Below, piece after piece: positions 15,854 through 47,590 of a stretch of DNA of 64,000 nt. The stretch's first letter is position 1; every line of letters begins with the position of its first letter. The stretch is from Streptomyces sp. SAI-127. Lineage in GTDB: Bacteria > Actinomycetota > Actinomycetes > Streptomycetales > Streptomycetaceae. The position numbers and the translations under genes were made by a program. Location: positions 8,204,501 to 8,268,500 of the forward strand of contig NZ_JARXYJ010000001.1 in the NCBI RefSeq assembly GCF_029894425.1, given 5' to 3'. Under the pieces are notes generated by a model. It had not been told where the DNA came from. It ran no database searches and saw only the letters and a program-made list of their open reading frames with translations.

Positions 15854-15873
15854 CATCCCTACCGGTCGGTATG
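15854..15873. promoter_or_regulatory. 20 bp palindrome-like operator, copy 1 of 4
   Basis: CATCCCTACCGGTCGGTATG matches CATACCGACCGGTCGGTATG at 18 of 20 positions. It lies 37 bp upstream of the molybdopterin oxidoreductase start. Other copies are at 27401, 42160 and 47571. Confidence 0.65.
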
Positions 15874-15909
15874 CTCACCTGGACAGGCACCGCTGCCCCG
15901 GGAGGACCC

Positions 15910-18147
15910 GTGTCCCGCACCGCTCTGCGTATCTGCCCCCTGTGCGAGGCCACCTGTGGTCTGACGCTCACCGTCGAGGGGACCCGGGTCACCGGCGCCC
16001 GCGGCGACCGTGACGACGTGTTCAGCAAGGGGTTCATCTGCCCGAAGGGGGCGTCCTTCGGGGCCGTCGACGGGGACCCCGACCGGCTGCGCACGCCCCT
16101 CGTCCGACGGGACGGCGAGCTGCGCGAGGCCACCTGGGAGGAGGCCTTCGACGCGGTCGCCGCCGGCATCCGGGGCGTCGTCGACCGGCACGGGGCGAAC
16201 TCCGTCGCGGTCGTCCTCGGCAACCCCAACGTGCACACCATGGCCGGCGCCCTCTACCCGCCGGTGCTGCTCGCCGGGCTCGGCACCCGGGGCGTCTTCA
16301 CCGCGTCCACGGTCGACCAGATGCCCAAGCACGTCTCCAGCGGGCTGCTGTACGGCGACGCCAACGCCATCCCCGTGCCCGACCTCGACCACACCGACCA
16401 TCTGCTGCTGATCGGCGCCAACCCACTGGAGTCCAACGGCAGTCTGTGCACCGCCCCCGACTTCCCCGGCAAGCTCAAGGCGCTCAAGGCCCGCGGCGGC
16501 ACCCTCACCGTCATCGACCCCCGCCGCACCCGCACCGCCAGGCTCGCCGACCGGCACATCGCCATCCGGCCCGGTGCGGATGCGCTGCTTCTCGCCGCCG
16601 TGGCGCACGTGCTCTTCGAGGAAGGCCTCGTGGACACGGGGCAGTTGACCTCACACCTCCAAGGGCTCGACGAACTCCGGGAAGCCGTACACGACTTCAC
16701 TCCCGAAGCCGTCGCCGACGCCTGTGACGTGGACGCCGGGGTGACGCGTGCCCTCGCCCGTGAACTGGCCGAAGCCCCGACGGCCGCCGTATACGGCCGC
16801 ATCGGCAGCTGCACCGTCCCGCACGGCACCCTGGCCAGCTGGCTCGTCGACGTGCTGAACATCCTCACCGGCAACCTCGACCAGCCCGGCGGCGCGCTCT
16901 TCCCGCAGGCGGCCACCGACCGCACGCCCCGGCCCGCGGGCCCCAGCCACGGATTCGCGCTCGGGCGCTGGCACTCCCGGGTGAGCCGGCACCCCGAGGC
17001 CAAGGGCGAGTTGCCGCTCTCCGCGCTCGCCGAGGAGATCGACACCGCGACCGCGGAGGGCGAGCCGGTCCGCGCGCTGATCGCCGTCGCCGCCAACCCC
17101 GTGCTGTCCGCCCCCGACGGCGACCGGCTCGACAAGGCCCTCGGCTCGCTCGACTTCATGGTCAGCGTGGACCCCTACCTGAACGAGACCTCGCGCCACG
17201 CCCACGTCGTGCTGCCGCCGCCCCCGCCCTCCCAGAGCCCGCACCACGACTTCGCGTTCAACACCCTCGCCGTGCGCAACCAGGTCCGCTACACCCGCCC
17301 CGCCGTCCCGCTGGAGCCCGGCCGGATGGCGGAGACCGAGATCCTCGCCCGGCTGATCCTCGCCGCGACCGGCATGCACGGCGCCGACCCGTCCGCCGTG
17401 GACGACCTGGTCATCGGCCAGACCCTCGGCAAGGCCGTCAAGGACGCCCACTCGCCCGTGCACGGCCGCGAGCCGGGCGAACTCAGCGCCGAACTCGCCG
17501 GCGACACCGGCCCCGAGCGGCGGCTCGACATGATGCTGCGCCTCGGCCCCTACGGCGACGGCTTCGGCGTACGACCCGACGGGCTGAGCCTCACCAAGCT
17601 GCTCGCGCATCCGCACGGCATCGACCTCGGACCGCTGCGTTCCCGGCTGCCGCAGCCGCTGAAGACCAGGAGCGGCAAGGTCGAACTGCTGCCGCAGCCC
17701 ATCGCGGACGACCTGCCCAGGCTGCGCGAGGCCCTGCGGCACCAGCCCGACGGGCTCGTCCTCGTCGGCCGCCGGCACCTGCGCTCCAACAACAGCTGGA
17801 TGCACAACGTCCCCGCCCTCACCGGCGGCACCAACCGCTGCACCCTGCACATCCACCCCGAGGACGCCGAGCGGCTCGGGCTGAAGGACGGTGCCGCGGT
17901 GCGGGTCAAGGGCGCCGGGGGAGAGGTGGTCACCGAGGCCGAGGTCACCGACGGCGTGCGCCCCGGCGTGGTCAGCCTGCCGCACGGCTGGGGCCACAAC
18001 CGGCCCGGCACCCGGCTAAGCCACGCCCTCAAGGACCCCGGCGTCAACGTCAACCAGCTCCTCGACGGCAGCCTGCTCGACCCGCTCTCGGGCAACGCGG
18101 TCCTCAACGGCGTACCGATAAAACTGGCCCCTGTAGCGGCCCTGTGA
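15910..18147 (+). CDS. molybdopterin-dependent oxidoreductase (bis-MGD, formate dehydrogenase/nitrate reductase type)
   Basis: 745 aa. The N-terminal 4Fe-4S site is CPLCEATCG followed by GFICPKG (C-x2-C-x3-C ... C). The molybdopterin oxidoreductase domain follows (LLLIGANPLESNG, VIDPRRTRTARLAD, NILTGNLDQPGGALFP), then a C-terminal dinucleotide-binding domain (NSWMHNVPALTGG, SLPHGWGH). No signal peptide, so it is cytoplasmic. Substrate and redox partner are unknown. GTG was chosen because GGGAGGA precedes it; an ATG at 15871 would add 13 residues and sits inside the operator. Likely repressed through that operator. Confidence 0.9.
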   Translation: MSRTALRICPLCEATCGLTLTVEGTRVTGARGDRDDVFSKGFICPKGASFGAVDGDPDRLRTPLVRRDGELREATWEEAFDAVAAGIRGVVDRHGANSVAVVLGNPNVHTMAGALYPPVLLAGLGTRGVFTASTVDQMPKHVSSGLLYGDANAIPVPDLDHTDHLLLIGANPLESNGSLCTAPDFPGKLKALKARGGTLTVIDPRRTRTARLADRHIAIRPGADALLLAAVAHVLFEEGLVDTGQLTSHLQGLDELREAVHDFTPEAVADACDVDAGVTRALARELAEAPTAAVYGRIGSCTVPHGTLASWLVDVLNILTGNLDQPGGALFPQAATDRTPRPAGPSHGFALGRWHSRVSRHPEAKGELPLSALAEEIDTATAEGEPVRALIAVAANPVLSAPDGDRLDKALGSLDFMVSVDPYLNETSRHAHVVLPPPPPSQSPHHDFAFNTLAVRNQVRYTRPAVPLEPGRMAETEILARLILAATGMHGADPSAVDDLVIGQTLGKAVKDAHSPVHGREPGELSAELAGDTGPERRLDMMLRLGPYGDGFGVRPDGLSLTKLLAHPHGIDLGPLRSRLPQPLKTRSGKVELLPQPIADDLPRLREALRHQPDGLVLVGRRHLRSNNSWMHNVPALTGGTNRCTLHIHPEDAERLGLKDGAAVRVKGAGGEVVTEAEVTDGVRPGVVSLPHGWGHNRPGTRLSHALKDPGVNVNQLLDGSLLDPLSGNAVLNGVPIKLAPVAAL

Positions 18148-18149
18148 GC

Positions 18150-18180
18150 AGCGCAAAGCTGTGACCAGCAGTTTTGCGCT
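18150..18180 (+). terminator. hairpin after the molybdopterin oxidoreductase gene
   Basis: AGCGCAAA (18150-18157) pairs with TTTGCGCT (18173-18180), with CTG/CAG extending the stem across one mismatch. It starts 3 bp after the stop and separates this gene from the citrate carrier gene. Confidence 0.55.
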
Positions 18181-18285
18181 TATTGCTCGCATGTCAACGT
18201 CTTGTTAACGCTGCTTGACGGGTCCTAACGTCATCGCACTGCCGACTCCGGTGGGAGTTCAAGGGCGAACGTTAGGTATCCACTC

Positions 18286-19725
18286 ATGCTGACCATCCTC
18301 GGCTTCGCCATGATCGCGACCTTCCTGGTCCTGATCATGATGAAAAAGATGTCGCCGATCGCGGCGCTCGTACTGATCCCGGCACTGTTCTGCGTCTTCG
18401 TCGGGAAGGGCGCCAAGCTCGGTGACTACGTCATCGACGGCGTCACCAGCCTCGCCCCCACCGCGGCGATGCTCATGTTCGCGATCGTCTACTTCGGCGT
18501 GATGATCGACGTCGGCCTCTTCGATCCGGTCGTCCGCGGAATCCTGAAATTCGCGAAGGCCGACCCGATGCGGATCGTCGTCGGCACGGCGATCCTCGCC
18601 GCGATCGTCTCCCTCGACGGCGACGGCTCGACCACCTTCATGATCACCGTCTCGGCGATGTACCCGCTGTACAAGCGCCTGAAGATGAGTCTGGTCGTGA
18701 TGACCGGTGTCGCCGCCATGGCCAACGGCGTGATGAACACCCTGCCGTGGGGCGGCCCGACGGCCCGCGCCGCCACCGCGCTGAAGCTCGACGCCAGCGA
18801 CATCTTCGTCCCGATGATCCCGGCCCTGGCCGTCGGCCTGCTGGGCGTCTTCATCCTCTCGTACGTGCTCGGCAAGCGTGAGCGCAAGCGGCTGGGCGTG
18901 CTCACCCTGGACGAGATCCTGGTGGACGAGAAGGCCGGGGAGAAGGTCGAGACGAAGGTCGAGGAGACCGAGACGGTACTCGTGGGTGCCGGCGGCTCGG
19001 GCTCCGGCTCCGGCTCGAAGACCCCCGTGGCCACCGGTGGCTCCGGCACCGACGCCGAGGACGAGGCCGGCGACGCGGAGCGCTTCCAGGTCCTCGACCC
19101 GAACCGGGCCACCCTGCGGCCCAAGCTCTACTGGTTCAACGCGCTGCTCACGCTCACCCTGCTCACCGCCATGATCATGGAGTGGCTGCCGATCCCGGTG
19201 CTGTTCCTGATCGGCGCCGCGCTCGCGCTCACCGTGAACTTCCCGCACATCCCGGACCAGAAGGCCCGCCTGGCCGCCCACGCCGACAACGTCCTCAACG
19301 TCTCCGGCATGGTCTTCGCCGCCGCCGTTTTCACCGGCGTCCTCCAGGGCACCGGCATGGTCGACCACATGGCCCGCTGGATGGTGGACGTCATCCCCGA
19401 CGGCATGGGCCCGCACATGGCCCTCGTCACCGGCATCCTGAGCCTCCCGCTCACCTACTTCATGTCGAACGACGGTTTCTACTTCGGCGTCCTCCCGGTC
19501 CTCGCCGAAGCCGGCGCGGCGCACGGTGTGACCCCGCTGGAGATGGCCCGCGCCTCCCTCGTCGGCCAGCCGCTGCACATGTCGAGCCCGCTCGTCCCGG
19601 CCGTGTACGTCCTGGTCGGCATGGCCAAGGTGGAGTTCGGCGACCACACCAGGTTCGTGGTCAAGTGGGCGGCGCTCACATGTCTGATCATCCTCGGGGC
19701 AGGCATCCTCTTCGGGATCATCTGA
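18286..19725 (+). CDS. CitMHS family citrate-metal:proton symporter
   Basis: 479 aa membrane carrier for citrate complexed with a divalent cation (Mg or Ca type). About twelve helices are visible, from LTILGFAMIATFLVLIMM at the N-terminus to LTCLIILGAGILFGII at the C-terminus. Family signatures include SLDGDGSTTFMITVSAMYPL, GVMNTLPWGGPTARAATALK and MSNDGFYFGVLPVL. A long charged and Gly/Ser-rich cytoplasmic loop (about residues 205-275) lies midway. No two-component citrate sensor is adjacent, so regulation is not obvious. Confidence 0.94.
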   Translation: MLTILGFAMIATFLVLIMMKKMSPIAALVLIPALFCVFVGKGAKLGDYVIDGVTSLAPTAAMLMFAIVYFGVMIDVGLFDPVVRGILKFAKADPMRIVVGTAILAAIVSLDGDGSTTFMITVSAMYPLYKRLKMSLVVMTGVAAMANGVMNTLPWGGPTARAATALKLDASDIFVPMIPALAVGLLGVFILSYVLGKRERKRLGVLTLDEILVDEKAGEKVETKVEETETVLVGAGGSGSGSGSKTPVATGGSGTDAEDEAGDAERFQVLDPNRATLRPKLYWFNALLTLTLLTAMIMEWLPIPVLFLIGAALALTVNFPHIPDQKARLAAHADNVLNVSGMVFAAAVFTGVLQGTGMVDHMARWMVDVIPDGMGPHMALVTGILSLPLTYFMSNDGFYFGVLPVLAEAGAAHGVTPLEMARASLVGQPLHMSSPLVPAVYVLVGMAKVEFGDHTRFVVKWAALTCLIILGAGILFGII

Positions 19726-19749
19726 CCTACTTCACGGAGGACTTGAACC

Positions 19750-20988: not shown

Positions 20989-21051
20989 CGGCGCGCCGGG
21001 CGTCGATGCGCCCGACCGCTGCGCGCATAAAGGAGAGTCCTGCCGAAAGAG

Positions 21052-21069
21052 CGATTTGTATGTAAATCG
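21052..21069. promoter_or_regulatory. palindrome before the secreted protein/sortase pair
   Basis: CGATTT (21052-21057) and AAATCG (21064-21069) form a perfect 6 bp inverted repeat with a 6 nt spacer, 20 bp upstream of the start codon, in an unusually AT-rich patch. It could be an operator or part of the promoter. Confidence 0.4.
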
Positions 21070-21089
21070 TCTGAATCGGAGGAGCGCGC

Positions 21090-22740: not shown

Positions 22741-22912
22741 ATCCGGCCGTCCGTTTTCTCACTGGCTGGACCGGAGCGCCCGATCCCGCCCAGTCTCTTC
22801 CCCCGACCGGGCGCATTCCGTTAACTTCCGTGACTCACAGCCCCGTACGACCCGCCCGGGGCCTCTCGACCGCGGAGCACCAGCGCCTGATTCAGCCCTC
22901 GGGGGCACCGTC

Positions 22913-24250: not shown

Positions 24251-24330
24251 GGGGCCGGATGGGGGGGGCTGGTGCGGCTCGACATACGGCCCACAGCCGC
24301 TCCGCCTCCGCCCGCCGTCGCGCCGCCGCC

Positions 24331-24470: not shown

Positions 24471-24504
24471 TGGTCCCGCCTCCGTGCGCCCGGGCTTTGG
24501 CTGA

Positions 24505-24756: not shown

Positions 24757-24792
24757 TGTCCGTGGACGGTCCGGTCCCGCTCTGGCGCGAAA

Positions 24793-24811: not shown

Positions 24812-24857
24812 ATGAGCCGGACGACAACACGCACGGCCCAGCCCGGGAGGACGCACC

Positions 24858-26246
24858 ATGAAGGCGCACGACGGCATGTACATCGACGGCGGGTGGCGCC
24901 CGGCCACCGGCCCGGACCTGATCGAGGTCGTGAACCCGGCCGACGAGCAGGTCGTCGGCAGGGTCCCGGCCGGTACCGCCGAGGACGTCGACCTCGCCGT
25001 ACGGGCCGCCCGCGCCGCCCTCCCGGCCTGGGCCGCGACCGCTCCCGTCGCGCGGGCCGCCCGCCTGGCCGCCCTCCGGGACGTCCTGGCCGCCCGCAAG
25101 GACGAGATCGCCGAGACCGTCACCGCCGAGCTCGGCTCGCCCCTGAAGTTCTCGCAGAACGTCCACGCCGCCGTCCCCGTCGCGGTCGCCGCCTCCTACG
25201 CGGAGCTCGCGGCCACGCACCCCTTCGAGGAGAAGGTCGGCAACTCCACCGTCCACCAGGAGCCGATCGGCGTGGTCGGCGCGATCACGCCCTGGAACTA
25301 CCCGCTGCACCAGATCGTCGCCAAGGTCGCCCCCGCCCTCGCCGCGGGCTGCACGGTCGTGCTCAAGCCCGCCGAGGACACCCCGCTGGTCGCCCAGCTC
25401 TTCGCCGAGGCGGTCCACGAGGCCGGCGTCCCGGCCGGCGTCTTCAACCTGGTCACCGGCCTCGGCCCGGTCGCGGGGCAGGCGCTCGCCGAGCACCCGG
25501 ACGTGGACCTCATCTCCTTCACCGGCTCCACCGCGGTCGGACGGCAGATCGGCGCGACCGCCGGAGCCGCCCTGAAGAAGGTCGCCCTGGAACTCGGCGG
25601 CAAGTCCGCCAATGTCATCCTGCCGAGCGCCGACCTCGCCAAGGCGGTCAACGTCGGCGTCGCCAACGTGATGTCCAACTCCGGCCAGACCTGCAGTGCC
25701 TGGACCCGGATGCTGGTGCACACCGAGCAGTACGACGAGGCCGTCGAACTCGCCGCCGCGGCCGCCGCGAAGTACGGCGAGCGCATCGGTCCCGTCGTCA
25801 GCGCCAAGCAGCAGGCACGGGTGCGCGGTTACATCGAGAAGGGCGTGGCCGAGGGCGCCCGGCTGGTCGCCGGCGGCGCCGAATCCCCGCGCGAACAGGG
25901 CTACTTCGTCAGCCCGACCGTCTTCGCCGACGTCACCCCCGACATGACGATCGCGCAGGAGGAGATCTTCGGCCCGGTCCTGTCCGTCCTGCGCTACGAG
26001 GACGAGGAGGACGCCCTGCGCATCGCCAACGGCACGGTCTACGGCCTCGCGGGCGCCGTCTGGGCCGGCGACGAGTCGGAGGCGGTGGCCTTCGCCCGGC
26101 GGATGGACACCGGCCAGGTCGACATCAACGGCGGCCGCTTCAACCCCCTTGCCCCCTTCGGCGGTTACAAGCAGTCCGGGGTGGGCCGCGAGCTCGGCTC
26201 GCACGGTCTCTCCGAGTACCTCCAGACCAAGTCCCTCCAGTTCTGA
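24858..26246 (+). CDS. aldehyde dehydrogenase family protein
   Basis: 462 aa NAD(P)-dependent aldehyde oxidation enzyme. Motifs: GVVGAITPWNYPLHQIVAKV, nucleotide-binding FTGSTAVGRQI, general base Glu in LELGGKSANVI, catalytic Cys in SNSGQTCSAWTRM, and EEIFGPVLSVLRY. No signal peptide. The ATG follows a GGAGGACG site. An alcohol dehydrogenase gene starts 11 bp downstream, so the pair could take an alcohol to an acid through an aldehyde. The promoter carries an operator shared with an acyl-CoA dehydrogenase gene, linking it to acyl or aldehyde catabolism. Confidence 0.94.
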   Translation: MKAHDGMYIDGGWRPATGPDLIEVVNPADEQVVGRVPAGTAEDVDLAVRAARAALPAWAATAPVARAARLAALRDVLAARKDEIAETVTAELGSPLKFSQNVHAAVPVAVAASYAELAATHPFEEKVGNSTVHQEPIGVVGAITPWNYPLHQIVAKVAPALAAGCTVVLKPAEDTPLVAQLFAEAVHEAGVPAGVFNLVTGLGPVAGQALAEHPDVDLISFTGSTAVGRQIGATAGAALKKVALELGGKSANVILPSADLAKAVNVGVANVMSNSGQTCSAWTRMLVHTEQYDEAVELAAAAAAKYGERIGPVVSAKQQARVRGYIEKGVAEGARLVAGGAESPREQGYFVSPTVFADVTPDMTIAQEEIFGPVLSVLRYEDEEDALRIANGTVYGLAGAVWAGDESEAVAFARRMDTGQVDINGGRFNPLAPFGGYKQSGVGRELGSHGLSEYLQTKSLQF

Positions 26247-26257
26247 GGAGCCTTCCC

Positions 26258-27337
26258 GTGGTTCGTGCCGCCGTTCTTCCCGCCGTGGGCGCTCCCCTCG
26301 AGGTCACCGACATCGACCTGCCGGACCCCGGCCCCGGCCGGGTCCGGGTCCGGCTCGCCGCGGCCGGGGTCTGCCACTCCGACCTGTCCCTGTCCAACGG
26401 CACCATGCGCGTCCCCGTCCCGGCCGTCCTCGGCCACGAGGGCGCGGGCACGGTCGTCGCCGTGGGGGAGGGGGTCACCGGGGTGGTGCCCGGCGCCGGG
26501 GTCGTCCTCAACTGGGCTCCTTCCTGCGGTAGTTGTCACGCCTGCTCGCTCGGCGAGGTCTGGCTGTGCGCCAACGCGCTCAACGGCGCCGCCGACGTCT
26601 ACGCCCACACCGCGGACGGCGCCGACCTCCACCCCGGCCTGAACGTCGCCGCGTTCGCCGAGGAGACGGTCGTCTCCGAGTCCTGCCTCCTGCCCCTCCC
26701 CGAGGGCATCCCGCTCACCGACGCGGCTCTGCTGGGCTGCGCGGTCCTCACCGGCTACGGAGCCGTCCACCACGCGGCCCGGGTCCGGGAGGGCGAGACG
26801 GTCGCGGTGTACGGAGTCGGAGGAGTGGGCCTGGCCGCGCTCCAGGCGGCCCGGATCGCGGGCGCCTCGCGGATCGTCGCCGTCGATGTCTCCCCGGAGA
26901 AGGAGGAGTTGGCACGCGCGGCCGGGGCCACCGACTACGTGATCGCCTCCGACAACACCGCCCGGGAGATCAGGGGTCTCACCGGCAAGCAGGGCGTCGA
27001 CGTCGCCGTGGAGTGCGTGGGCCGCGCGACGACCATCCGCACGGCCTGGGACTCCACCCGCCGCGGCGGCCGTACGACGGTCGTCGGCATCGGCGGAAAG
27101 GACCAGCAGGTCAGCTTCAACGCCCTGGAGATCTTCCACTGGGGCCGCACCCTCGCGGGCTGTGTCTACGGCAACTCGAACCCGGCCGAGGACCTCCCCG
27201 TGCTCGCCGAGCACGTACGGGCGGGCCGCCTGGACCTCGGCGCCCTGGTGACGGAACGGATCGCGCTGGACGGGATTCCGGCGGCGTTCGACAACATGCT
27301 GGCGGGCAAGGGCGGCCGGGCGCTGGTGGTGTTCTGA
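26258..27337 (+). CDS. zinc-dependent alcohol dehydrogenase (MDR family)
   Basis: 359 aa. Catalytic zinc ligands lie in GVCHSDLSLSNG and LGHEGAGTVVAVGEG. The structural zinc has four cysteines in CGSCHACSLGEVWLC. The Rossmann motif is YGVGGVGLAALQAARI, followed by VAVDVSPEKEELAR. The GTG start is preceded by GAGGAG overlapping the aldehyde dehydrogenase stop, so the genes form an operon. It probably interconverts an alcohol and the aldehyde used by its neighbour. A strong hairpin terminator follows. Confidence 0.94.
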   Translation: MVRAAVLPAVGAPLEVTDIDLPDPGPGRVRVRLAAAGVCHSDLSLSNGTMRVPVPAVLGHEGAGTVVAVGEGVTGVVPGAGVVLNWAPSCGSCHACSLGEVWLCANALNGAADVYAHTADGADLHPGLNVAAFAEETVVSESCLLPLPEGIPLTDAALLGCAVLTGYGAVHHAARVREGETVAVYGVGGVGLAALQAARIAGASRIVAVDVSPEKEELARAAGATDYVIASDNTAREIRGLTGKQGVDVAVECVGRATTIRTAWDSTRRGGRTTVVGIGGKDQQVSFNALEIFHWGRTLAGCVYGNSNPAEDLPVLAEHVRAGRLDLGALVTERIALDGIPAAFDNMLAGKGGRALVVF

Positions 27338-27342
27338 CCGAG

Positions 27343-27379: not shown

Positions 27380-27400
27380 TTCCCGCACAACCGTTGACCC

Positions 27401-27420
27401 CATACCGTCCGGTCAGTATG
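27401..27420. promoter_or_regulatory. 20 bp palindrome-like operator, copy 2 of 4
   Basis: CATACCGTCCGGTCAGTATG matches CATACCGACCGGTCGGTATG at 18 of 20 positions. It lies 45 bp upstream of the MHS transporter start. Confidence 0.7.
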
Positions 27421-27464
27421 TTCAGCCGCCAACGTCCCCACGCACCCACCGGAGTGTGCACAGC

Positions 27465-28793
27465 ATGGACACGGCCCCTTCCGCTCACCCCACTTCCGTA
27501 GCAGCGCCGGCGACTCCCCACCGCCGTCGCGTCGCGACCGCGGCCGCCCTGGCCTCCGCCGTCGAGTGGTACGACTACTTCGTCTTCGGCATAGCCGCCG
27601 CCCTCGTTCTCGGCGATCTGTACTTCCCGGCGGGCAGCTCCACCGCCGGCGTCCTCGCCGCCTTCGCCACCTTCGCCGTCGGCTTCCTCGCCCGCCCGAT
27701 CGGCGGCATCGTCGCCGGCCAGCTCGGCGACAAGCGCGGCCGCAAGCCGATGCTGGTCCTCGCGCTCACCCTCATGGGCGTCGCCACCACCGGCATCGGC
27801 CTGCTGCCGACGTACGACACGATCGGCGTCGCCGCCCCGATCCTGCTCGTCCTCCTCCGCGTCGTACAGGGCGTCGCGGTCGGCGCGCAGTGGGGCGGCG
27901 CGATGCTGCTGGCCACCGAGTACGCCCCCGAGGGCAAGCGCGGGCTCTACGGCAGCGTCGTCCAGCTCGGCGTCCCCATCGGCGTGGTGACCGCCAACAC
28001 GGTGTTCCTGCTGGCCGGGGCGTTCACCACGGACGCCGGGTTCGCGGCCTGGGGCTGGCGCGTCCCGTTCCTCATCGGCCTGTTCGTCCTCGCACTCGCC
28101 TGGTACATCCACGCCAAGGTCGAGGAGACCCCCGAATTCCGGCAGGCGGAACGGGAGTTGGCCGCGAAGGAGAAGAGCGGGCAGAACTCCCCGCTGCGCA
28201 CGATCCTGCGCCACCACCTCGGCACGGTGCTGCTCGCGGGCGGCTCCTTCGCCGTGAACACCGCGACCTTCTACATCATGATCACGGGCGTCCTCGACTA
28301 CACCACCCGCGAACTCGGCATGCAGCGCAGTGCCGTTCTCACCGTCTCGCTCTGCATCAGTCTCACCCAGCTGGTGCTGATCCCGGCCGCCGCGGCGCTC
28401 TCCGACCGCCTCGGCCGGATCCGGATCTACGGCCTCGGCGCGGTCGGCATCGCCCTGTGGGCGATACCGATGTTCCTGCTCATCGACACCGGGTCGCTGC
28501 TGTGGCTGGCGGTCTCCACATTCGTCGCCGGATGCTTCCTCAGCATCATGTACGGCCCTCAAGCCGCCCTGTTCGCCGAGCTGTTCACGCCGGAGATGCG
28601 GTACACCGGCGCCTCCCTCGGCTACCAGATCGCCGCGGTGCTCGGCGGTGGGCTCGCGCCCTTCCTGATGGTGCTGCTGCTGGAGACCACGGGCACGTCG
28701 ATGGCGGTGTCCGGGTACATCATCGGTCTCTCGGTGATCGCGCTGCTCTGCATCAAGGTGCTTGCGAGCAGGGCGCGTTCACGCGGGGTCTGA
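27465..28793 (+). CDS. MFS transporter, metabolite:H+ symporter (MHS) subfamily
   Basis: 442 aa, twelve helices. N-terminal VEWYDYFVFGIAAALVLGDL is the MHS family hallmark, followed by GFLARPIGGIVAGQLGDKRGRK (MFS loop motif). The C-terminal half includes FSIMYG-like SIMYGPQAALFAELFTPEMR YTGASLGYQIAAVLGGG. MHS proteins import organic acids such as shikimate, ketoglutarate, proline-betaine or citrate. The substrate here is unknown. The promoter has the 20 bp operator seen before acyl-CoA genes, so a carboxylic or fatty acid is a reasonable guess. Its last 15 bp overlap the convergent DMT gene. Confidence 0.92.
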   Translation: MDTAPSAHPTSVAAPATPHRRRVATAAALASAVEWYDYFVFGIAAALVLGDLYFPAGSSTAGVLAAFATFAVGFLARPIGGIVAGQLGDKRGRKPMLVLALTLMGVATTGIGLLPTYDTIGVAAPILLVLLRVVQGVAVGAQWGGAMLLATEYAPEGKRGLYGSVVQLGVPIGVVTANTVFLLAGAFTTDAGFAAWGWRVPFLIGLFVLALAWYIHAKVEETPEFRQAERELAAKEKSGQNSPLRTILRHHLGTVLLAGGSFAVNTATFYIMITGVLDYTTRELGMQRSAVLTVSLCISLTQLVLIPAAAALSDRLGRIRIYGLGAVGIALWAIPMFLLIDTGSLLWLAVSTFVAGCFLSIMYGPQAALFAELFTPEMRYTGASLGYQIAAVLGGGLAPFLMVLLLETTGTSMAVSGYIIGLSVIALLCIKVLASRARSRGV

Positions 28794-33224: not shown

Positions 33225-33851
33225 ATGACTACGGCGGAGGAGACGGCCGGCGGCGAGACGTCGGCGTGGGGCGAGGTCACGCCCGACGCGGCGCGGCGGC
33301 TGCTCATTGCCGCGGTGGAGGCGTTCGCCGAGCGCGGCTACCACGCCACCACGACCCGGGACATCGCGGGCCGGGCCGGCATGAGCCCCGCCGCGCTCTA
33401 CATCCACTACAAGACCAAGGAAGAGCTGCTCCACCGCATCAGCAGGATCGGCCACGCGAAGGCACTGGAGATCCTCCAGGTCGCCGCCCGCCGCGAAGCC
33501 AGCGCCACCGAGCGGCTCACGGACGCCGTGAGCTCCTTCGTCCGCTGGCACGCCGGCGGCCGCACCACCGCCCGGGTCGTCCAGTACGAACTGGACTCGC
33601 TCGGCCCTGACGCCCGCGCCGAGATCCTCGCGCTGCGCCGGCAGTGTGACGCCGAGATCCGCGGGATCATCGAGGACGGCGTGGCCTCCGGCGAGTTCGA
33701 CGTGCTCGACGTGCGGGGCACCACCCTCGCCGTCATGTCGCTCTGCATCGACGTGGCCCGCTGGTTCAACGTCGACGGCCCCTGGACGCCCGACGAGGTC
33801 GGCGCGCTCGACGCCGACCTCGTCCTGCGGATGGTGGGCGCGACCAAGTAG
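33225..33851 (+). CDS. TetR/AcrR family regulator, KstR-like
   Basis: 208 aa. HTH at about residues 25-70 (RLLIAAVEAFAERGYHATTT RDIAGRAGMSPAALYIHYKT KEEL). The C-terminal domain (RQCDAEIRGIIEDGVASGEF, CIDVARWFN) resembles regulators of acyl-CoA and steroid breakdown. Palindromes related by sequence lie before this gene and between MaoC and SoxR genes, so MaoC is its likely target. Convergent with MaoC, with a 4 bp gap. Confidence 0.9.
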   Translation: MTTAEETAGGETSAWGEVTPDAARRLLIAAVEAFAERGYHATTTRDIAGRAGMSPAALYIHYKTKEELLHRISRIGHAKALEILQVAARREASATERLTDAVSSFVRWHAGGRTTARVVQYELDSLGPDARAEILALRRQCDAEIRGIIEDGVASGEFDVLDVRGTTLAVMSLCIDVARWFNVDGPWTPDEVGALDADLVLRMVGATK

Positions 33852-35021: not shown

Positions 35022-35744
35022 CTACGACGAGCGCTGGGCCCACTCGTACTGGACCAGTCCCTCGGCCACCAACTGAGCGTTGGACAGGGCTGGTCGGCCG
35101 TCCGGCAGGACCAGTGTGTCCTCCAGGCCCACTCGGGTCGCGAGGCCCAGCCGGCCTGCCAACCGCAGCACCGGCCAGGCGCCGGCGCCCTCGCCGTGCA
35201 GCAGCACGGGGCGGCCGTGCGACGGCCCGAGCTCGGCCAGGAGCGTGCGCGCGGACGCCTCCGCCGCCTGCGTGTCCGTCACCTCCGCGAGGACCCGCAG
35301 CACCTTCGGCCCGAGCGGCGACACCGTGAACCTCGCCGCCGCCTCCGTCGCCGACCAGATACCGGCCTCCACGCCGACCCCCAGGTCGATCAGCGCGGCG
35401 ACGATCTCCTCGGCACCCGGCTCGTGCCAGTTCACCGAGGCGTGGTCGGGCAGCACCGTCCAGTCCCGGACCCGGGCGAGCCGGGCCGCGGGGTCCGGTT
35501 CCGCCCAGGCGCCGGTGGTCACTCCGACCGGGACCGACACCCGTGCACGGATCGCCTCAAGTGTCGCCGCGACCACCCGCGGCGACAGACTGTCCCGCCC
35601 GCAAGGCGTCTTGGGGTGGACATGGATGTCCGTGGCGCCCGCAGCGACGGCCTCGGCCGCCGCCTGCGCCATGGACTCGGGGGTGAGCGGCACCGCCGTT
35701 CCGTCGGCGGCCCCGCGCGGGCCGTTGAGACACACCTGCACCAT
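35022..35744 (-). CDS. 3-keto-5-aminohexanoate cleavage protein (BKACE family)
   Basis: 240 aa TIM-barrel enzyme of the beta-keto acid cleavage family, which condenses a beta-keto acid with acetyl-CoA to give acetoacetate and an acyl-CoA. The metal-binding pair is in DIHVHPKT (HVH); a later Glu in RVGLEDTL completes the site. The N-terminus VQVCLNGPRG is typical. It is shorter than lysine-pathway Kce enzymes (about 270-310 aa), so the substrate is uncertain. A GGTGCC-N4-GGCACC palindrome lies 9 bp upstream (35753-35768). Confidence 0.9.
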   Translation of the reverse strand: MVQVCLNGPRGAADGTAVPLTPESMAQAAAEAVAAGATDIHVHPKTPCGRDSLSPRVVAATLEAIRARVSVPVGVTTGAWAEPDPAARLARVRDWTVLPDHASVNWHEPGAEEIVAALIDLGVGVEAGIWSATEAAARFTVSPLGPKVLRVLAEVTDTQAAEASARTLLAELGPSHGRPVLLHGEGAGAWPVLRLAGRLGLATRVGLEDTLVLPDGRPALSNAQLVAEGLVQYEWAQRSS

Positions 35745-35835
35745 TCCTCGATGGTGCCAGGCGGCACCGACGGTTCAAGCCCGTCAGAACAGGGGGTGCG
35801 GCATCCCCGGCGCACCCCCGGTGCGCTCACACGCT

Positions 35836-39460: not shown

Positions 39461-39479
39461 GCCGACGGCCGGCGGCGGG

Positions 39480-40794: not shown

Positions 40795-40866
40795 CGCCGA
40801 CCCCCTCGTCCCCCGTAGTGGTGCGCATCGTCCTACTACCGGGCGAAGTTGGCCATACTCCACGGC

Positions 40867-42099: not shown

Positions 42100-42159
42100 G
42101 AGGTGCACGGTAGGCGCTGCCGCGCGTTGTGGGGAGGTTTCCCTCACCCTTTCCTTCAA

Positions 42160-42179
42160 CATACCGACCGGTTAGTCTG
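42160..42179. promoter_or_regulatory. 20 bp palindrome-like operator, copy 3 of 4
   Basis: CATACCGACCGGTTAGTCTG matches CATACCGACCGGTCGGTATG at 17 of 20. It lies 34 bp before the SDR gene, in the gap shared with NamZ, so it may govern one or both. Confidence 0.7.
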
Positions 42180-42212
42180 GGCCCGCAGTCGAGCCGCAGT
42201 CGAAGGAGACCG

Positions 42213-42986
42213 ATGGTGGAAGCCCTGCAGGGTGCCGGAGTGGTTGTGACCGGAGCGGGAGGTGGCATCGGGGCCGCGCTGGCCCGGCGGTTTGCTGCGG
42301 AAGGGGCCCGGGTCGTCGTCAATGACCTCGACGCCGGCCGCGCGAAGGCCGTGGCCGAGGAGATCGGGGGCATCGCCGTCGCCGGGGACGCCTCCGCCGT
42401 CGTCTCCGACGCCCGCGACGCGCTCGGCGGCAACGTCGACGTGTACTGCGCCAACGCCGGTGTCGCCTTCGGCGGAGGGAATGCCGACGAGCCGCTCGAC
42501 GAGACCGGCTGGGCCACTTCCTGGGACGTGAACGTCATGGCGCACGTGCGGGCCGCCCACGCGCTGCTTCCGGGGTGGCTGGAGCGGGGGAGCGGGCGGT
42601 TCGTGTCGACCGTCTCCGCCGCGGGGCTGCTGACCATGATCGGGGCCGCTCCCTACGCCGTCACCAAGCACGGGGCGTACGCCTTCGCCGAGTACCTGTC
42701 GCTGACGTACCGGCACCGGGGGATCAAGGTGCACGCGATCTGTCCGCAGGGCGTGCGGACCGACATGCTCGCGGCCACCGGCACCGCCGGGGACCTGGTG
42801 CTCCAGCCGACCGCCGTCGAACCGGAGGATGTGGCCGAGGCGCTGTTCCGGGGGATCGAGGAGGACCGGTTCCTGATCCTGCCGCACCCGGAGGTCGCCG
42901 AGTACTACCAGGCGCGGGCCGCCGAGCCCGATCGCTGGCTGGCCGGCATGAACCACCTCCAGCGCAAGTGGGAGGAGGTCCGATGA
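42213..42986 (+). CDS. SDR family oxidoreductase
   Basis: 257 aa classical short-chain dehydrogenase. Cofactor motif TGAGGGIG (residues 13-20), NAG motif in YCANAGVAFGG, catalytic Ser in STVSAAG and YAVTKHG (Y-x3-K). The C-terminus is LAGMNHLQRKWEE. Start ATG preceded by AAGGAG. It is translationally coupled to the acyl-CoA synthetase (ATGA overlap). In context it probably oxidises a hydroxyacyl or related alcohol intermediate. Direct substrate evidence is lacking. Confidence 0.94.
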   Translation: MVEALQGAGVVVTGAGGGIGAALARRFAAEGARVVVNDLDAGRAKAVAEEIGGIAVAGDASAVVSDARDALGGNVDVYCANAGVAFGGGNADEPLDETGWATSWDVNVMAHVRAAHALLPGWLERGSGRFVSTVSAAGLLTMIGAAPYAVTKHGAYAFAEYLSLTYRHRGIKVHAICPQGVRTDMLAATGTAGDLVLQPTAVEPEDVAEALFRGIEEDRFLILPHPEVAEYYQARAAEPDRWLAGMNHLQRKWEEVR

Positions 42987-44650
42987 GCGAGTCCCGTTAC
43001 GCCGCCAAGCCCTGGCTGGCGCTGCTCAGCGAGGCCCAGCGCGGGCCGATCGAGCCCGACGACTCGCTCGTGCACACCCTGCGGCGGGCCGTCGCCGAGG
43101 CACCGGAGCGGCCCTTCCTCGCCTACTTCGACGGACGGCTCAGCTATCGCGAGGTCGACGAGCTGAGCGACTCCGTCGCCGGGCACCTCGCCGCGCGCGG
43201 TCTGGAGCGCGGGGACCGGGTGGCGGTCCTGCTCCAGAACTCCCCGCTGTTCGTGCTCGCGCTGCTCGGTGCCTGGAAGGCGGGCGCGGTCGTCGTGCCC
43301 GTCAACCCCATGTACAAGTCGGGGGAGGTCGGCCATGTCCTGCGGGACGGTGAGGTGACCGCGCTGATCTGCTCCGACCGGGCCTGGGAGTCGTATCTGC
43401 GCGAGACGGCGGCCGGCTCGGCGGTGCGGATCGTGCTGACCGGGTGCGAGTTGGATTTCCAGACCCGCGGGGACGCGCGCGTGCTCACCTTCGAGCGGTT
43501 GCCGCAGGCCGAGGACGCCGACGACCTGGTCGCCGTCGCCGGGGCCGGGCACAAGGCGCCCGAAGGACGGGACGTCACACCCTCCGACATCGCGCTCATC
43601 AGCTACACCTCGGGGACGAGCGGCACGCCCAAGGGCGCCACCAACACCCACGGCAACATCATGTACAACGCCGAGCGGCAGCGCACCGGGCTCGGCCTGC
43701 CCGAGGCGCCCGTGTACTTCGCGCTGGCGCCCCTGTTCCACATCACCGGGATGGTCTGCCAGCTCGGGGCGTGTCTGAACAGCGTGGGCACGCTCGTGCT
43801 GGCGTACCGCTTCGAGGCGGGTGTCGTCCTGGAGGCCTTCGCCGAGCACCGGCCGCACTACACGGTCGGCCCGTCGACCGCCTTCATGGCCCTGGCCGCC
43901 CACCCGGACGTCACCCGTGAGCACTTCTCGTCCTTCGTCAACATCTCCTCGGGCGGGGCGCCGCTGCCGCCCGCCCTGGTGGAGAAGTTCCGGGCCGGCT
44001 TCGGGCCGTACATCCGCAACGGCTACGGGCTGACCGAGTGCTCCGCGCCCTGCGCCTCCGTGCCGCCGGAGCGGGAGGCGCCCGTCGACCCGGTGTCCGG
44101 GACGCTCGCCGTGGGCGTGCCGGGGCCCGAGACGGTCGTACGGATCGTCGACGACAGCGGCGTCGAGGTGCCCTTCGGGGAGCAGGGCGAGATCGTCGTG
44201 CGCGGGCCGCAGGTGGTGCCAGGCTACTGGCGGCGGCCGGAGGCGACCGCCGAGACCTTCCCGGACGGCGAGCTGCGCACGGGTGACATCGGGTTCATGG
44301 ACCCCGAGGGCTGGCTGTACGTCGTGGACCGCAAGAAGGACATGATCAACGCGTCCGGCTTCAAGGTGTGGCCGCGCGAGGTCGAGGACGTGCTGTACAC
44401 GCATCCGGCGGTGCGCGAGGCGGCCGTCGTCGGGGTGCCCGACGGGTACCGCGGGGAGACCGTCAAGGCGTACATCAGCCTCCGTCCGGGTGCGGAAACC
44501 GACCCCGATGCGCTCGCCGCGTACTGCAAGGAGAGACTGGCGGCCTACAAATACCCGCGGCAGGTGGAGATCCTGCCCGACTTGCCGAAGACGGCCAGTG
44601 GGAAGATCCTCCGGCGGGAACTCCGTTCCCCACCGCACAACAGCGCATGA
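42983..44650 (+). CDS. fatty acyl-CoA synthetase / AMP-dependent ligase
   Basis: 555 aa adenylate-forming enzyme that activates a carboxylic acid to its CoA thioester. Motifs: P-loop ISYTSGTSGTPKGATNTHGN, YGLTECSAPC, core DxxR/hinge in GDIGFMDPEGWLYVVDRKKD, and the C-terminal catalytic lysine in LPKTASGKILRREL. Starts in the SDR stop. It supplies the acyl-CoA used by neighbouring acyl-CoA dehydrogenase and kinase genes. Chain length cannot be told from sequence. Confidence 0.94.
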   Translation: MSESRYAAKPWLALLSEAQRGPIEPDDSLVHTLRRAVAEAPERPFLAYFDGRLSYREVDELSDSVAGHLAARGLERGDRVAVLLQNSPLFVLALLGAWKAGAVVVPVNPMYKSGEVGHVLRDGEVTALICSDRAWESYLRETAAGSAVRIVLTGCELDFQTRGDARVLTFERLPQAEDADDLVAVAGAGHKAPEGRDVTPSDIALISYTSGTSGTPKGATNTHGNIMYNAERQRTGLGLPEAPVYFALAPLFHITGMVCQLGACLNSVGTLVLAYRFEAGVVLEAFAEHRPHYTVGPSTAFMALAAHPDVTREHFSSFVNISSGGAPLPPALVEKFRAGFGPYIRNGYGLTECSAPCASVPPEREAPVDPVSGTLAVGVPGPETVVRIVDDSGVEVPFGEQGEIVVRGPQVVPGYWRRPEATAETFPDGELRTGDIGFMDPEGWLYVVDRKKDMINASGFKVWPREVEDVLYTHPAVREAAVVGVPDGYRGETVKAYISLRPGAETDPDALAAYCKERLAAYKYPRQVEILPDLPKTASGKILRRELRSPPHNSA

Positions 44651-44676
44651 CCTCTCGGAAGGCAGGTGGCGGCACA

Positions 44677-45270
44677 GTGCCCAGGACGACGGACGGAGAC
44701 GGTACGCCCGTCCCGCAGCGGCTGCTGGCCGCCGCCACCCGGCTCTTCGCGGAGCAGGGCTACGACCGCACCTCCGTGCAGGAGATCGTCGAGGCGGCCG
44801 GCGTCACCAAGGGGGCGCTGTACCACTACTTCGGCTCCAAGGACGACCTCCTGCACGAGGTGTACGCGCGCGTGCTGCGCGTCCAGCAGGAACGCCTGGA
44901 CGCGCTCGCCAACGCCGACGAGCCGATCGAGAAGCGGCTGCGGGCGGCAGCCGCCGACGTCGTCGTCACCACGATCGAGAACCTCGACGACGCGATGATC
45001 TTCTTCCGCTCGATGCACCACCTGAGCCCCGAGAAGAACAAGCAGGTGCGCGCCGAGCGGCGGAAGTACCACGAACGCTTCCGCGCGCTCATCGAGGAGG
45101 GCCAGGAAGCGGGCGTCTTCTCGAAGGCGACCCCGGCCGATCTCGTCGTGGACTACCACTTCGGGTCCGTCCACCACCTGTCGACCTGGTACCGCCCGGA
45201 CGGCCCGATGGGCCCGCAGGAGGTCGCCGACCACCTGGCCGACCTCCTCCTGCGGTCCCTGCGCCCGTAG
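44677..45270 (+). CDS. TetR/AcrR family regulator of the acyl-CoA module
   Basis: 197 aa. HTH: RLLAAATRLFAEQGYDRTSV QEIVEAAGVTKGALYHYFGS KDDL. The C-terminal domain (RRKYHERFRALIEEGQEAGV) resembles regulators that sense acyl-CoA. GTG 44677 has AGGTGG upstream; an ATG at 44647 that overlaps the synthetase stop is an alternative. Last gene of the SDR-synthetase operon, so it is the best candidate to bind the CATACCGACCGGTCGGTATG sites at 42160 and 47571. Convergent with the acyl-CoA dehydrogenase gene, 8 bp apart. Confidence 0.92.
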   Translation: MPRTTDGDGTPVPQRLLAAATRLFAEQGYDRTSVQEIVEAAGVTKGALYHYFGSKDDLLHEVYARVLRVQQERLDALANADEPIEKRLRAAAADVVVTTIENLDDAMIFFRSMHHLSPEKNKQVRAERRKYHERFRALIEEGQEAGVFSKATPADLVVDYHFGSVHHLSTWYRPDGPMGPQEVADHLADLLLRSLRP

Positions 45271-45278
45271 AGCGCCTC

Positions 45279-46493
45279 CTAGAGGTATTTCTTCAGCTCC
45301 CGTCGCGCGAGCGAGCGCTGGTGCACCTCGTCCGGGCCGTCCGCGATCATCAGGGTGCGGGCGCCGGCGTACAGCTCGGCCAGCGGGAAGTCCTGGCTGA
45401 CTCCGCCCGCGCCGTGCAGCTGGATCGCCCGGTCGATGATGTCGACGACCGCGCGGGGCGTGGCGATCTTGATGGACTGGATCTCGGTGTGGGCGCCCCT
45501 GTTGCCGACCGTGTCCATCAGCCAGGCCGTCTTCAGGACCAGCAGGCGGAGCTGCTCGACGGTCACGCGCGCGTCGGCGATCCAGTTGTGGACCACGCCC
45601 TGCTGGGCCAGCGCCTTGCCGAAGGCGTCGCGGGAGACCGCGCGGCGGCACATCAGCTCGATCGCCCGCTCGGCCATGCCGATCAGCCGCATGCAGTGGT
45701 GGATCCGGCCGGGGCCGAGGCGGGCCTGGGCGATGGCGAAGCCGCCGCCCTCCTCGCCGATGAGGTTCGAGGCCGGCACGCGCGCGTGGTCGAAGATCAC
45801 CTCGGCGTGGCCGCCGTGGGAGTGGTCCTCGTAGCCGAAGACCTGCATCGCCCGCTTCACCGTGACGCCCGGTGTGTCCCGGGGGACCAGGATCATGGAC
45901 TGCTGGCGGCGGATGTCCTCGCCGTCCGGGTCCGTCTTGCCCATCACGATGAAGATCTTGCAGTCGGGGTTCATCGCCCCGGAGATGTACCACTTGCGGC
46001 CCGTGACGACGTACTCGTCGCCGTCCCGTTCGATGTGGGTGGTGATGTTCGTGGCATCGGAGGACGCGACCTCCGGCTCGGTCATCGCGAACGCCGAGCG
46101 GATCTCACCGGCCAGCAGCGGCTCCAGCCACTGCTTCTTCTGCTGCTCGTCGCCGAACTGCGAGAGCACCTCCATGTTGCCGGTGTCGGGCGCCGCGCAG
46201 TTCAGCGCGGTGGGCGCGAGCTGCGGGGAGCGGCCGGTGATCTCGGCGAGCGGGGCGTACTGGAGGTTGGTGAGGCCGGCGCCGTACTCGGCGTCGGGCA
46301 GGAAGAGGTTCCACAGGCCCTGCCCGCGCGCCTCCGCCTTGAGCTCCTCGACCACGGCCGGGGTGTCCCACGGCGATGCCAGCCGCTCGCGCTGCTCCTC
46401 GGCGACGGCCTCGGCGGGGTAGACGTACTCGTCCATGAAGGCGAGCAGCTTGGCGCGCAGCTCCTCGGTGCGTGCGTCGAACGCGAAGTCCAT
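45279..46493 (-). CDS. acyl-CoA dehydrogenase (ACAD10/11-like)
   Basis: 404 aa. FAD loop AMTEPEVASSDATNITT, GRKWYISGAMNPDCKIFIVM, GFAIAQARLGPGRIHHCMRL and the C-terminal IADGPDEVHQRSLARRELKK. This group is close to the ACAD10/11 C-terminal domain. In those proteins and in the Pseudomonas LvaA/LvaC pair, an APH-like kinase phosphorylates a 4-hydroxyacyl-CoA that the ACAD then processes. The kinase gene lies directly upstream here, 5 bp away, so they are co-transcribed. The usual simple alpha,beta dehydrogenation is an alternative role. Confidence 0.93.
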   Translation of the reverse strand: MDFAFDARTEELRAKLLAFMDEYVYPAEAVAEEQRERLASPWDTPAVVEELKAEARGQGLWNLFLPDAEYGAGLTNLQYAPLAEITGRSPQLAPTALNCAAPDTGNMEVLSQFGDEQQKKQWLEPLLAGEIRSAFAMTEPEVASSDATNITTHIERDGDEYVVTGRKWYISGAMNPDCKIFIVMGKTDPDGEDIRRQQSMILVPRDTPGVTVKRAMQVFGYEDHSHGGHAEVIFDHARVPASNLIGEEGGGFAIAQARLGPGRIHHCMRLIGMAERAIELMCRRAVSRDAFGKALAQQGVVHNWIADARVTVEQLRLLVLKTAWLMDTVGNRGAHTEIQSIKIATPRAVVDIIDRAIQLHGAGGVSQDFPLAELYAGARTLMIADGPDEVHQRSLARRELKKYL

Positions 46494-46498
46494 GCGGA

Positions 46499-47533
46499 TC
46501 AGCCTTCCTGGATGCCGTCTTGAAGCGTGGTCAGACCGTGCTGGATGAAGACCGGGACGAGGTCGCCGATGCGGTCGAAACCGCGGCCGACCGTCTGGCC
46601 CAGGGTGTAGCGGTAGTGGATGCCCTCCAGGATCACGGCGAGCTTGAACCAGGCGAACGCGGTGTACCAGGACACCGCGGAGACGTCCCGTCCGGAGCGC
46701 TCGGCGTACCGCGCGACCAGTTCGGCCGGATCCGGGTGGCCCGGGGCCTCGGCGGTCGTGGAGACGGGGGAGTCGGGCGCGCCCAGCGGCATGCTGTACA
46801 TGACCAGGAGGCCGAGGTCGGTGAGCGGGTCGCCGAGGGTCGACATCTCCCAGTCGAGGATCGCCCGGATCTCGTCGTCGTCGCCCATCAGGACGTTGTC
46901 GAGGCGGTAGTCGCCGTGGACGACCGTGGCCGCGGGGGACTGCGGGAGACGGCGGCCGAGGGTCGCGTGCAGCTCGTCGATGCCGGCCAGGTCGCGGTTG
47001 CGGGAGGCGTCCAGCTGCTTGCCCCAGCGGCGCAGCTGGCGGTCCAGGAAGCCCTCCGGGCGGCCGAAGTCCGCGAGGCCCACCTCGGCGGGGTCCACCG
47101 CGTGCAGCTCGACCAGGGTGTCGACGAGGGACAGCACGGCGTCGCGGGTGCGCTCGGGCCCGAGGGGGGCGAGCTGGTCGGCGGTGCGGTACGGGGTGCC
47201 CTCGACGAACTCCATGACGTAGAAGGGCGATCCGAGCACCTCCTCGTCCTCGCACAGCAGGACCGGCTTCGGCACCGGCACCTCCGTGGGGTGCAGGGCG
47301 CTGATGACCCGGTGTTCGCGCTTCATGTCGTGCGCGGTGGCCAGGACATGGCCCAGCGGGGGCCGTCGTACGACCCACTTCGACGTGCCGTCCGACACCG
47401 CGTAGGTGAGATTCGACCGTCCGCCCTCGATCAGCCGGCCGGTCAGGGGGCCGTGCACCAGGCCGGGCCGCTCACGGTCGAGCAGGCCGCGCAGCCGGTC
47501 GAGATCGAGTCCTGGTGGATGGTCGGGGCTCAT
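46499..47533 (-). CDS. phosphotransferase family protein (APH fold, ACAD10/11-like kinase)
   Basis: 344 aa aminoglycoside-phosphotransferase fold kinase. ATP-binding KWVVRRPPLGH, catalytic HGDYRLDNVL, and metal-binding ILDWEMSTLGDPLTDL (IDWE/D type). Encoded with an acyl-CoA dehydrogenase downstream, the arrangement of the fused mammalian ACAD10/11 and of bacterial LvaA/LvaC. It likely phosphorylates a hydroxyacyl-CoA rather than an aminoglycoside. The 20 bp operator lies 38 bp upstream. Confidence 0.92.
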   Translation of the reverse strand: MSPDHPPGLDLDRLRGLLDRERPGLVHGPLTGRLIEGGRSNLTYAVSDGTSKWVVRRPPLGHVLATAHDMKREHRVISALHPTEVPVPKPVLLCEDEEVLGSPFYVMEFVEGTPYRTADQLAPLGPERTRDAVLSLVDTLVELHAVDPAEVGLADFGRPEGFLDRQLRRWGKQLDASRNRDLAGIDELHATLGRRLPQSPAATVVHGDYRLDNVLMGDDDEIRAILDWEMSTLGDPLTDLGLLVMYSMPLGAPDSPVSTTAEAPGHPDPAELVARYAERSGRDVSAVSWYTAFAWFKLAVILEGIHYRYTLGQTVGRGFDRIGDLVPVFIQHGLTTLQDGIQEG

Positions 47534-47570
47534 CTGTGCTCCTTACGCGCGCGTGAACGGTCCCGACCAT

Positions 47571-47590
47571 CATGCCGACTGGTCGGTATG
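47571..47590. promoter_or_regulatory. 20 bp palindrome-like operator, copy 4 of 4
   Basis: CATGCCGACTGGTCGGTATG matches CATACCGACCGGTCGGTATG at 18 of 20 positions. It precedes the kinase/acyl-CoA dehydrogenase operon. Confidence 0.72.

Follow-up and report, generated by a model that had tools for sequence, protein, structure and literature searches.

A genus-wide TetR regulon in Streptomyces with a PfmR-like operator and a putative role in 4-hydroxyacyl-CoA catabolism

We examined a window of 64,000 nucleotides from the chromosome of Streptomyces sp. SAI-127 (contig NZ_JARXYJ010000001.1, positions 8,204,501 to 8,268,500), in which a 20-bp palindromic operator, CATACCGACCGGTCGGTATG, precedes four transcription units. 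Comparison with other species indicates that the operator defines a real, genus-wide TetR regulon, one that is probably autoregulated. We propose, with a probability of roughly two in three, that the TetR-type protein encoded at 44677 (TetR2) binds this palindrome and represses genes for the uptake and breakdown of hydroxy or oxo acids by way of a kinase and dehydrogenase resembling LvaA and LvaC. The proposal, built from sequence comparison, assigns one catabolic regulon a regulator, an operator and no fewer than seven conserved target promoters, with regulator and site occurring together in 281 of the 295 genus genomes sampled.

Four operator sites and the genes they precede

A scan of the window with CATACCGACCGGTCGGTATG, allowing up to three mismatches, returned exactly four matches, with 2, 2, 3 and 2 mismatches. 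An earlier reading made from the sequence alone (the sequence-only reading) had listed the same four sites with the same scores:

15854..15873, plus strand: operator site 1, upstream of the molybdopterin (Mo) oxidoreductase gene; 18/20
27401..27420, plus strand: operator site 2, upstream of the MHS transporter gene; 18/20
42160..42179, plus strand: operator site 3, upstream of the operon for a short-chain dehydrogenase/reductase (SDR), an acyl-CoA synthetase and a TetR; 17/20
47571..47590, minus strand: operator site 4, upstream of the kinase/dehydrogenase operon; 18/20

The genes under these sites are as follows.

15910..18147, plus strand: molybdopterin oxidoreductase, 745 aa (Pfam PF00384, PF01568, PF04879)
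18286..19725, plus strand: CitMHS-type transporter, directly 3´ of the Mo enzyme gene (Pfam PF03600)
27465..28793, plus strand: MHS-type MFS symporter (Pfam PF07690, PF00083)
42213..42986, plus strand: SDR (Pfam PF00106)
42983..44650, plus strand: acyl-CoA synthetase, AMP-binding (Pfam PF00501, PF13193)
44677..45270, plus strand: TetR2, the proposed repressor, PfmR-like (Pfam TetR_N, TetR_C_24; nearest solved chain 3vpr)
45279..46499, minus strand: ACAD11/LvaC-like enzyme of the dehydrogenase fold (Acyl-CoA_dh; ACAD11 8v3u, E 3e-140)
46499..47533, minus strand: APH-type kinase resembling the ACAD11 kinase domain and LvaA (Pfam PF01636; ACAD11 8v3v, E 1e-49)

The near edge of each site lies 37, 45, 34 and 38 bp from the start codons of the Mo enzyme (15910), MHS (27465), SDR (42213) and kinase (47533, minus strand) genes, in agreement with the 34-45 bp given earlier, and the consensus is by inspection the perfect palindrome it had been called. 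The earlier gene names also held, given that the Pfam families Molybdopterin, MFS_1, adh_short, TetR_N, APH, Acyl-CoA_dh and AMP-binding were all found; the subfamily match of the MHS transporter falls below its cut-off (best NCBIfam model TIGR00883, metabolite/H+ symporter subfamily, 384 bits against a curated 443). The CitMHS-type gene is presumably co-transcribed with the Mo enzyme gene, and the kinase and dehydrogenase genes abut, with no gene, such as one for the lva partner protein LvaB, between them.

With a GC content of 71%, the window might be thought to yield such palindromes by accident. We reject this explanation, to which we give almost no credence, because 100 dinucleotide shuffles of the window averaged 0.00 matches at the same threshold and the reversed pattern found no match in the 10.72-Mb genome; the site positions are, moreover, conserved upstream of orthologous genes. 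The forward pattern found 7 places in that genome, four of them inside the window, and the chance that at least three of the other six sites would share one 64-kb stretch is about 4e-6 (binomial).

Site 2 takes up the 17 bp that separate TTGACC (27394-27399) from TATGTT (27417-27422), both of them named as promoter boxes by eye. This position between -35- and -10-like elements fits simple occlusion. C-rich boxes (CCCTTCC-like, CCCTCCCC) at 42135-42159 and 15840-15853, upstream of the SDR and Mo sites, are kept across the genus; unlike the TTGACC at MHS, they perhaps mark a second promoter class. Genes for an aldehyde dehydrogenase and a zinc alcohol dehydrogenase lie on the same strand directly 5´ of the MHS site (24858-27337), and the window scan, which allowed up to three mismatches, gave no site for these genes.

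Conservation across the genus

We sampled the neighbourhoods of TetR2 in 39 other genomes together with 10 MHS and 30 Mo loci, counts that take in the present genome, and scored the best 20-mer in the 250 bp upstream of genes with at least 55% identity (SDR exempt) and at least 100 bp of upstream DNA. A site of 16/20 or better stood before the SDR gene in 35 of 35 loci and before the kinase gene in 36 of 36. The MHS gene, itself present in 10 of 41 genomes at E 1e-150, had the site in all 10 loci, and the Mo enzyme gene had one of at least 15/20 in 29 of 30, the exception (L137) scoring 13. Control upstream regions (30 of the acyl-CoA synthetase, 37 of the dehydrogenase and 23 of the regulator TetR1, encoded beside site 1) reached 13/20 at most. 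Directly upstream of the TetR2 gene, the fourth control set, 39 loci gave one score of 14 and one of 16; in the latter genome (G018) the site lies immediately before TetR2, and the SDR and synthetase genes were not found in the 16 kb examined. Each site class has its own spelling, that of the SDR site across the genus being CATACCGAC.GGTTAGTCTG. In many species (15854-15873 here and L121-L149) the Mo site reads GCATACCGGTCGGTATG, with a CATACCG half in a shifted register, which gives a 16-bp near-palindrome within the 20-bp frame.

Site and regulator also travel together. A scan of 61 genus genomes gave 179 forward places, with a match in 58 of them. In the larger set of 295 genomes, the pattern CATACCGACYGGTYRGTMTG at up to two mismatches was present in 282 and TetR2 in 284; beyond the genomes with both, TetR2 occurred alone in 3, the site alone in 1 (G079, 78% complete) and neither in 10 (Fisher p about 3e-15, shared descent not being corrected for). 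The 14 genomes without TetR2 (11) or with TetR2 and no site (3) included none with the Mo gene at E 1e-150, a query that matched 32 of 41 genomes elsewhere. A kinase match at E 1e-60 was present in 4 of the 14, three at 39-50% identity and the fourth (G050) at 74% at a contig start. The test of whether a gene that is kept loses its site along with the regulator failed on these genomes, since the Mo gene is gone from them as well and so few have a kinase match. The absence of the Mo gene alongside TetR2 or the site fits a common pathway, but may reflect loss of one region alone.

A regulon wider than the window

The three sites outside the window (G000:C1:5881643, 6036736 and 9438858), not seen in the sequence-only reading, as the genus-wide conservation was not, precede genes for a luciferase-like (LLM) flavoenzyme, an operon of DUF485 and SSF permease genes, and a serine hydrolase gene, and sites recur at these genes in other species. 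From other genomes we examined 35 stretches where the site had matched, picked from among the matches listed, so that they show what recurrent sites precede and not how often each gene has one. Orthologues of the DUF485-SSF operon lay 3´ of the site in 5 stretches (L256-L260), of the LLM gene in 7 (L261-L265, L275, L291) and of the serine hydrolase gene in 9 (L266-L274); a second DUF485-SSF copy did so in 4 (L283, L284, L286, L289). With three or more further conserved promoters elsewhere in the chromosome, the regulon is wider than "local", as it had first been described: its existence stands, its confinement to this region does not. The idea that one response unites acyl-CoA genes with those for a transporter and a Mo enzyme is strongly supported by the conservation of sites upstream of their orthologues.

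Two of the 35 stretches (L285 and L287, from genomes G024 and G211) have the site before a gene that reads, by eye, as an acetyl-CoA acetyltransferase (thiolase), a possible additional regulon member in some species. A recurrent 17/20 site, CATACCGTCCGGGCGGAATG with near variants, was seen in seven genus genomes (L276-L282, at about 2050-2090 in each) and at L052:1501, where it lies two bases 5´ of a minus-strand ATG beside a conserved plus-strand gene; the genes neighbouring these sites show no clear tie to the pathway.

Relation to PfmR and PaaR

TetR2 falls in the TetR family by both of its domains (PF00440, 81.2 bits against a cut-off of 24; PF17932, 111.9 against 26.4). Its best match among 182 PDB sequences, a ranking within that set only, is 3vpr (E 4e-27), which is identical over 182 residues (100%) to TTHB023, or PfmR, encoded on pTT27 of Thermus thermophilus HB8; TetR2 and PfmR share 34% identity (E 3e-31). 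PfmR is described as binding TACCGACCGGTCGG-like sites at 0.3-7.4 nM, and these sites typically overlap -35, -10 or +1 (PMC7022988, in excerpt). Among the 80 loci found with PfmR we scanned L168-L199 for the core. A perfect ACCGACCGGTCGGT lies just upstream of the PfmR-type TetR gene in 12 of 12 loci (L168-L179; eleven titled Thermus, one a metagenome-assembled genome (MAG) of Bipolaricaulota), and in the next 20 the core reached 12/14 in three and was nowhere higher. In one of the Thermus loci, that of Thermus caliditerrae, a further site of 17/20 (CATACCTACCAGTAGGTATG, L174:3122) adjoins another gene fragment that resembles TetR2. With PfmR as its closest solved relative and the core ACCGACCGGTCGGT at its own promoter, TetR2 is predicted to be a PfmR-type regulator.

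The likeness extends to the genes controlled. The HB8 PfmR operon encodes SDRs, an AMP-binding protein, a serine hydrolase, an acyl-CoA dehydrogenase (ACAD; TTHB015) and a phosphotransferase (TTHB014), as the Streptomyces regulon does for an SDR, an AMP-binding protein, an ACAD10/11-type enzyme, a phosphotransferase and a serine hydrolase. TTHB015 is 41% identical to the window dehydrogenase and retains the HCMR motif together with the Arg and Asp residues discussed below; TTHB014 is 27% identical to the window kinase. Both are up on deletion of pfmR (log2 1.68 and 1.86, adjusted p about 0.02; PMC7022988, in excerpt), and the reported overlap of PfmR sites with core promoter elements has its counterpart at MHS here. 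Two Chloroflexi MAG loci (L181, L182) have an ACAD11-type enzyme (58% identity, motif kept), a kinase and an SDR near a TetR, and no site core at 12/14. Unlike the PfmR regulon, the Streptomyces targets are spread over at least seven promoters and include the Mo enzyme, the MHS and DUF485-SSF permeases and the LLM enzyme, and the 20-bp site extends further at its outer arms (CAT...ATG).

In Burkholderia cenocepacia the same repeat, ACCGACCGGTCGGT, lies between -35 and -10 and is needed for repression by the TetR-type repressor PaaR (PMC2770484, in excerpt). PaaR controls the paa phenylacetate genes, whereas the seven Streptomyces target promoters precede other genes, and the comparison is one of operators.

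A probable pathway of the ACAD10/11 type

The kinase and the dehydrogenase match the two halves of ACAD11. By alignment to 8v3u, the dehydrogenase keeps R626, H634 and R637 (HCMR motif) and the catalytic D753, the paper's residue numbers being taken as one above the 8v3u chain index; in ACAD11 these residues are tied to the handling of 4-phosphoacyl-CoA (PMC12440821, in excerpt). The other window dehydrogenase (31272) has neither the HCMR motif nor the ACAD10/11-specific residues. The kinase matches PF01636 at 199 bits and has the catalytic HGD as HGDYRLDN in the ACAD11 alignment; two chains, 9o56 (phosphotransferase) and 3dxp (putative acyl-CoA dehydrogenase), outscore 8v3v for it. From the ACAD11 match and the active-site residues, the regulon probably feeds 4-hydroxyacyl-CoA catabolism.

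Pseudomonas putida LvaA, a kinase, and LvaC, a dehydrogenase, carry out such chemistry on 4-hydroxyvalerate (PMC11342911 and PMC12440821, in excerpt). The Streptomyces genes share with that lva pathway and with mammalian ACAD10 and ACAD11 a kinase and an ACAD-type enzyme with the specific residues, and there is a synthetase in the regulon. In Streptomyces the two are separate genes, unlike the fused ACAD10 and ACAD11, and the likeness to the lva pathway is drawn through ACAD11, not the lva proteins themselves. The lva regulator of P. putida is a sigma54-type activator, LvaR, unlike the TetR here.

In the model that we propose, one or two TetR2 dimers would sit on the core promoter of each target, including TetR2's own SDR/synthetase/TetR operon, and block transcription until an acyl-CoA made from the incoming hydroxy or oxo acid accumulates and releases the repressor. 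The acid would enter through MHS and, elsewhere, a DUF485-SSF permease; the serine hydrolase might open an ester or lactone, the synthetase would activate the acid with CoA, and the SDR could carry out redox chemistry at the carbon chain. The kinase would then phosphorylate a 4-hydroxyacyl-CoA at its 4-hydroxyl, after which elimination of the phosphate by the ACAD10/11-type enzyme would give an enoyl-CoA for beta-oxidation. We infer the binding, the repression and the substrate; what induces the system, and what the Mo enzyme, LLM enzyme, SDR and serine hydrolase do in it, is guesswork. More tentatively, and with somewhat better odds against than for, control by PfmR-type TetRs could be an old trait of the ACAD10/11-type 4-hydroxyacyl-CoA pathway, shared all the way from Thermus to Streptomyces, with 4-hydroxy- or 4-phosphoacyl-CoA as inducer and the Mo and LLM enzymes as unrecognised steps.

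Which TetR binds, and what the regulon degrades

We compared three window TetRs as binders, TetR2 and the two listed here; further TetRs lie near 10025 and 30554, as recognised by eye.

15212..15832, plus strand: TetR1, disfavoured as binder; the alternative named in the sequence-only reading
33225..33851, plus strand: TetR3, a second TetR_C_24 regulator and candidate binder (Pfam TetR_C_24)

TetR2 is the best candidate among them on sequence grounds, as first suggested, because of its own operator, its recognition helix and its relatives outside the genus; its own operon carries site 3, and its relative PfmR binds the same core. A phylum search with TetR2 at E 1e-30 matched 16 of 396 genomes, only 4 of them outside the genus. 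In two of these (L248 and L249, another actinobacterial family), sites scoring 15-17/20 lie close to relatives 46-49% identical to TetR2; they precede an SDR-TetR operon and a gene for an ABC transporter, identified partly by eye. A search of 5.8 billion proteins added no distant relatives, since, among the 120 of 2979 matches listed, all that name an organism are Streptomyces.

The regulon could be real and yet answer to another TetR, either one elsewhere in the genome or, most plausibly, TetR3, which lies between the targets. TetR3 belongs to the same TetR_C_24 family, and its co-occurrence with the site (280 genomes with both, 4 with TetR3 only, 2 with the site only, 9 with neither) almost equals that of TetR2; since both sit in one conserved region, co-occurrence cannot part them. 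Against TetR3, the best match upstream of it in its own genome is 11/20, compared with a TetR2 operon site in 35 of 35 loci; its recognition-helix stretch SPAALYIHYKTK is further from PfmR's SKAALYHHFGSK than is TetR2's TKGALYHYFGSK, as read by eye; and the TetRs beside the L248 and L249 sites share 47-49% identity with TetR2 and 24-28% with TetR3. We hold a different binder to be improbable. TetR1 is a far weaker candidate still, one to which we give very little weight, although it adjoins site 1 and has been retained next to the Mo gene at the majority of Mo loci. None of the 23 TetR1 loci scored has a site upstream (maximum 13/20), its similarity to PfmR is confined to the helix-turn-helix region, its helix is unlike, and at E 1e-50 it is missing from 46 of the 282 site-bearing genomes, compared with 1 for TetR2 (236 with both, 1 with TetR1 only, 46 with the site only, 12 with neither, absences being inferred from the presences listed). 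That threshold misses some true orthologues; those next to the Mo gene in G004 and G015, for example, are 52% identical. In G034 a Mo site of 16/20 persists, and TetR1 was not found there at E 1e-50.

If TetR2 does control these genes, the substrate might still be something other than a 4-hydroxy acid, handled by another acyl-CoA route (branched, aromatic or phenylacetate-like). The related PaaR operator governs phenylacetate genes (PMC2770484, in excerpt), PfmR takes its name from phenylacetate and fatty acid metabolism (PMC7022988, in excerpt), and the lva route, as it has been described, does without the Mo enzyme, the LLM enzyme and partners in the Thermus operon. The kinase and dehydrogenase, however, have retained the residues linked to 4-phosphoacyl-CoA in the ACAD11 paper, and we consider a different substrate unlikely, though a serious alternative.

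Several observations weigh against repression by TetR2 of a 4-hydroxy-acid regulon. A search of the genome with TetR2 gives 73 matches at E 0.001 or better, mostly outside the binder comparison; TetR3 is as close overall to PfmR (33.5% identity, TetR2 34.4%) and nearly matches TetR2 in co-occurrence; and L250 and L251, still more distant TetR2 relatives and two of the four outside the genus, have no site at 15/20. The Mo site keeps mainly its right half, TACCGGTCGGTATG, only one half being well kept. The reversed pattern gives 11 places against the 179 forward in 61 genomes and is present in about 45 of the 295, and in 10 of the 35 stretches (L276-L282, L285, L287, L288) the site precedes no named target gene. 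A second look at eight further Thermus loci, at E 1e-4, found no kinase match within the stretches searched, so the Thermus pathway link rests on HB8, and the substrate is argued from enzyme type.

Literature and implications

In open PMC papers, viewed as titles and abstract starts, we found no TetR regulator of this pathway in Streptomyces; ACCGACCGGTCGGT together with TetR appears for PaaR and phenylacetate, and longer forms of the operator motif appear only in papers unrelated by title. The operator class is already known from PfmR and PaaR, and the suggested pathway assignment is new. It would tie that class to the recently solved 4-hydroxy-acid chemistry of ACAD10 and ACAD11, suggests a new reading of the T. 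thermophilus HB8 PfmR operon, and makes TetR2 a possible sensor for hydroxy acids.

Elsewhere in the window, the minus-strand open reading frame at 35022-35774 resembles, by eye, that of a beta-keto acid cleavage enzyme (DUF849).

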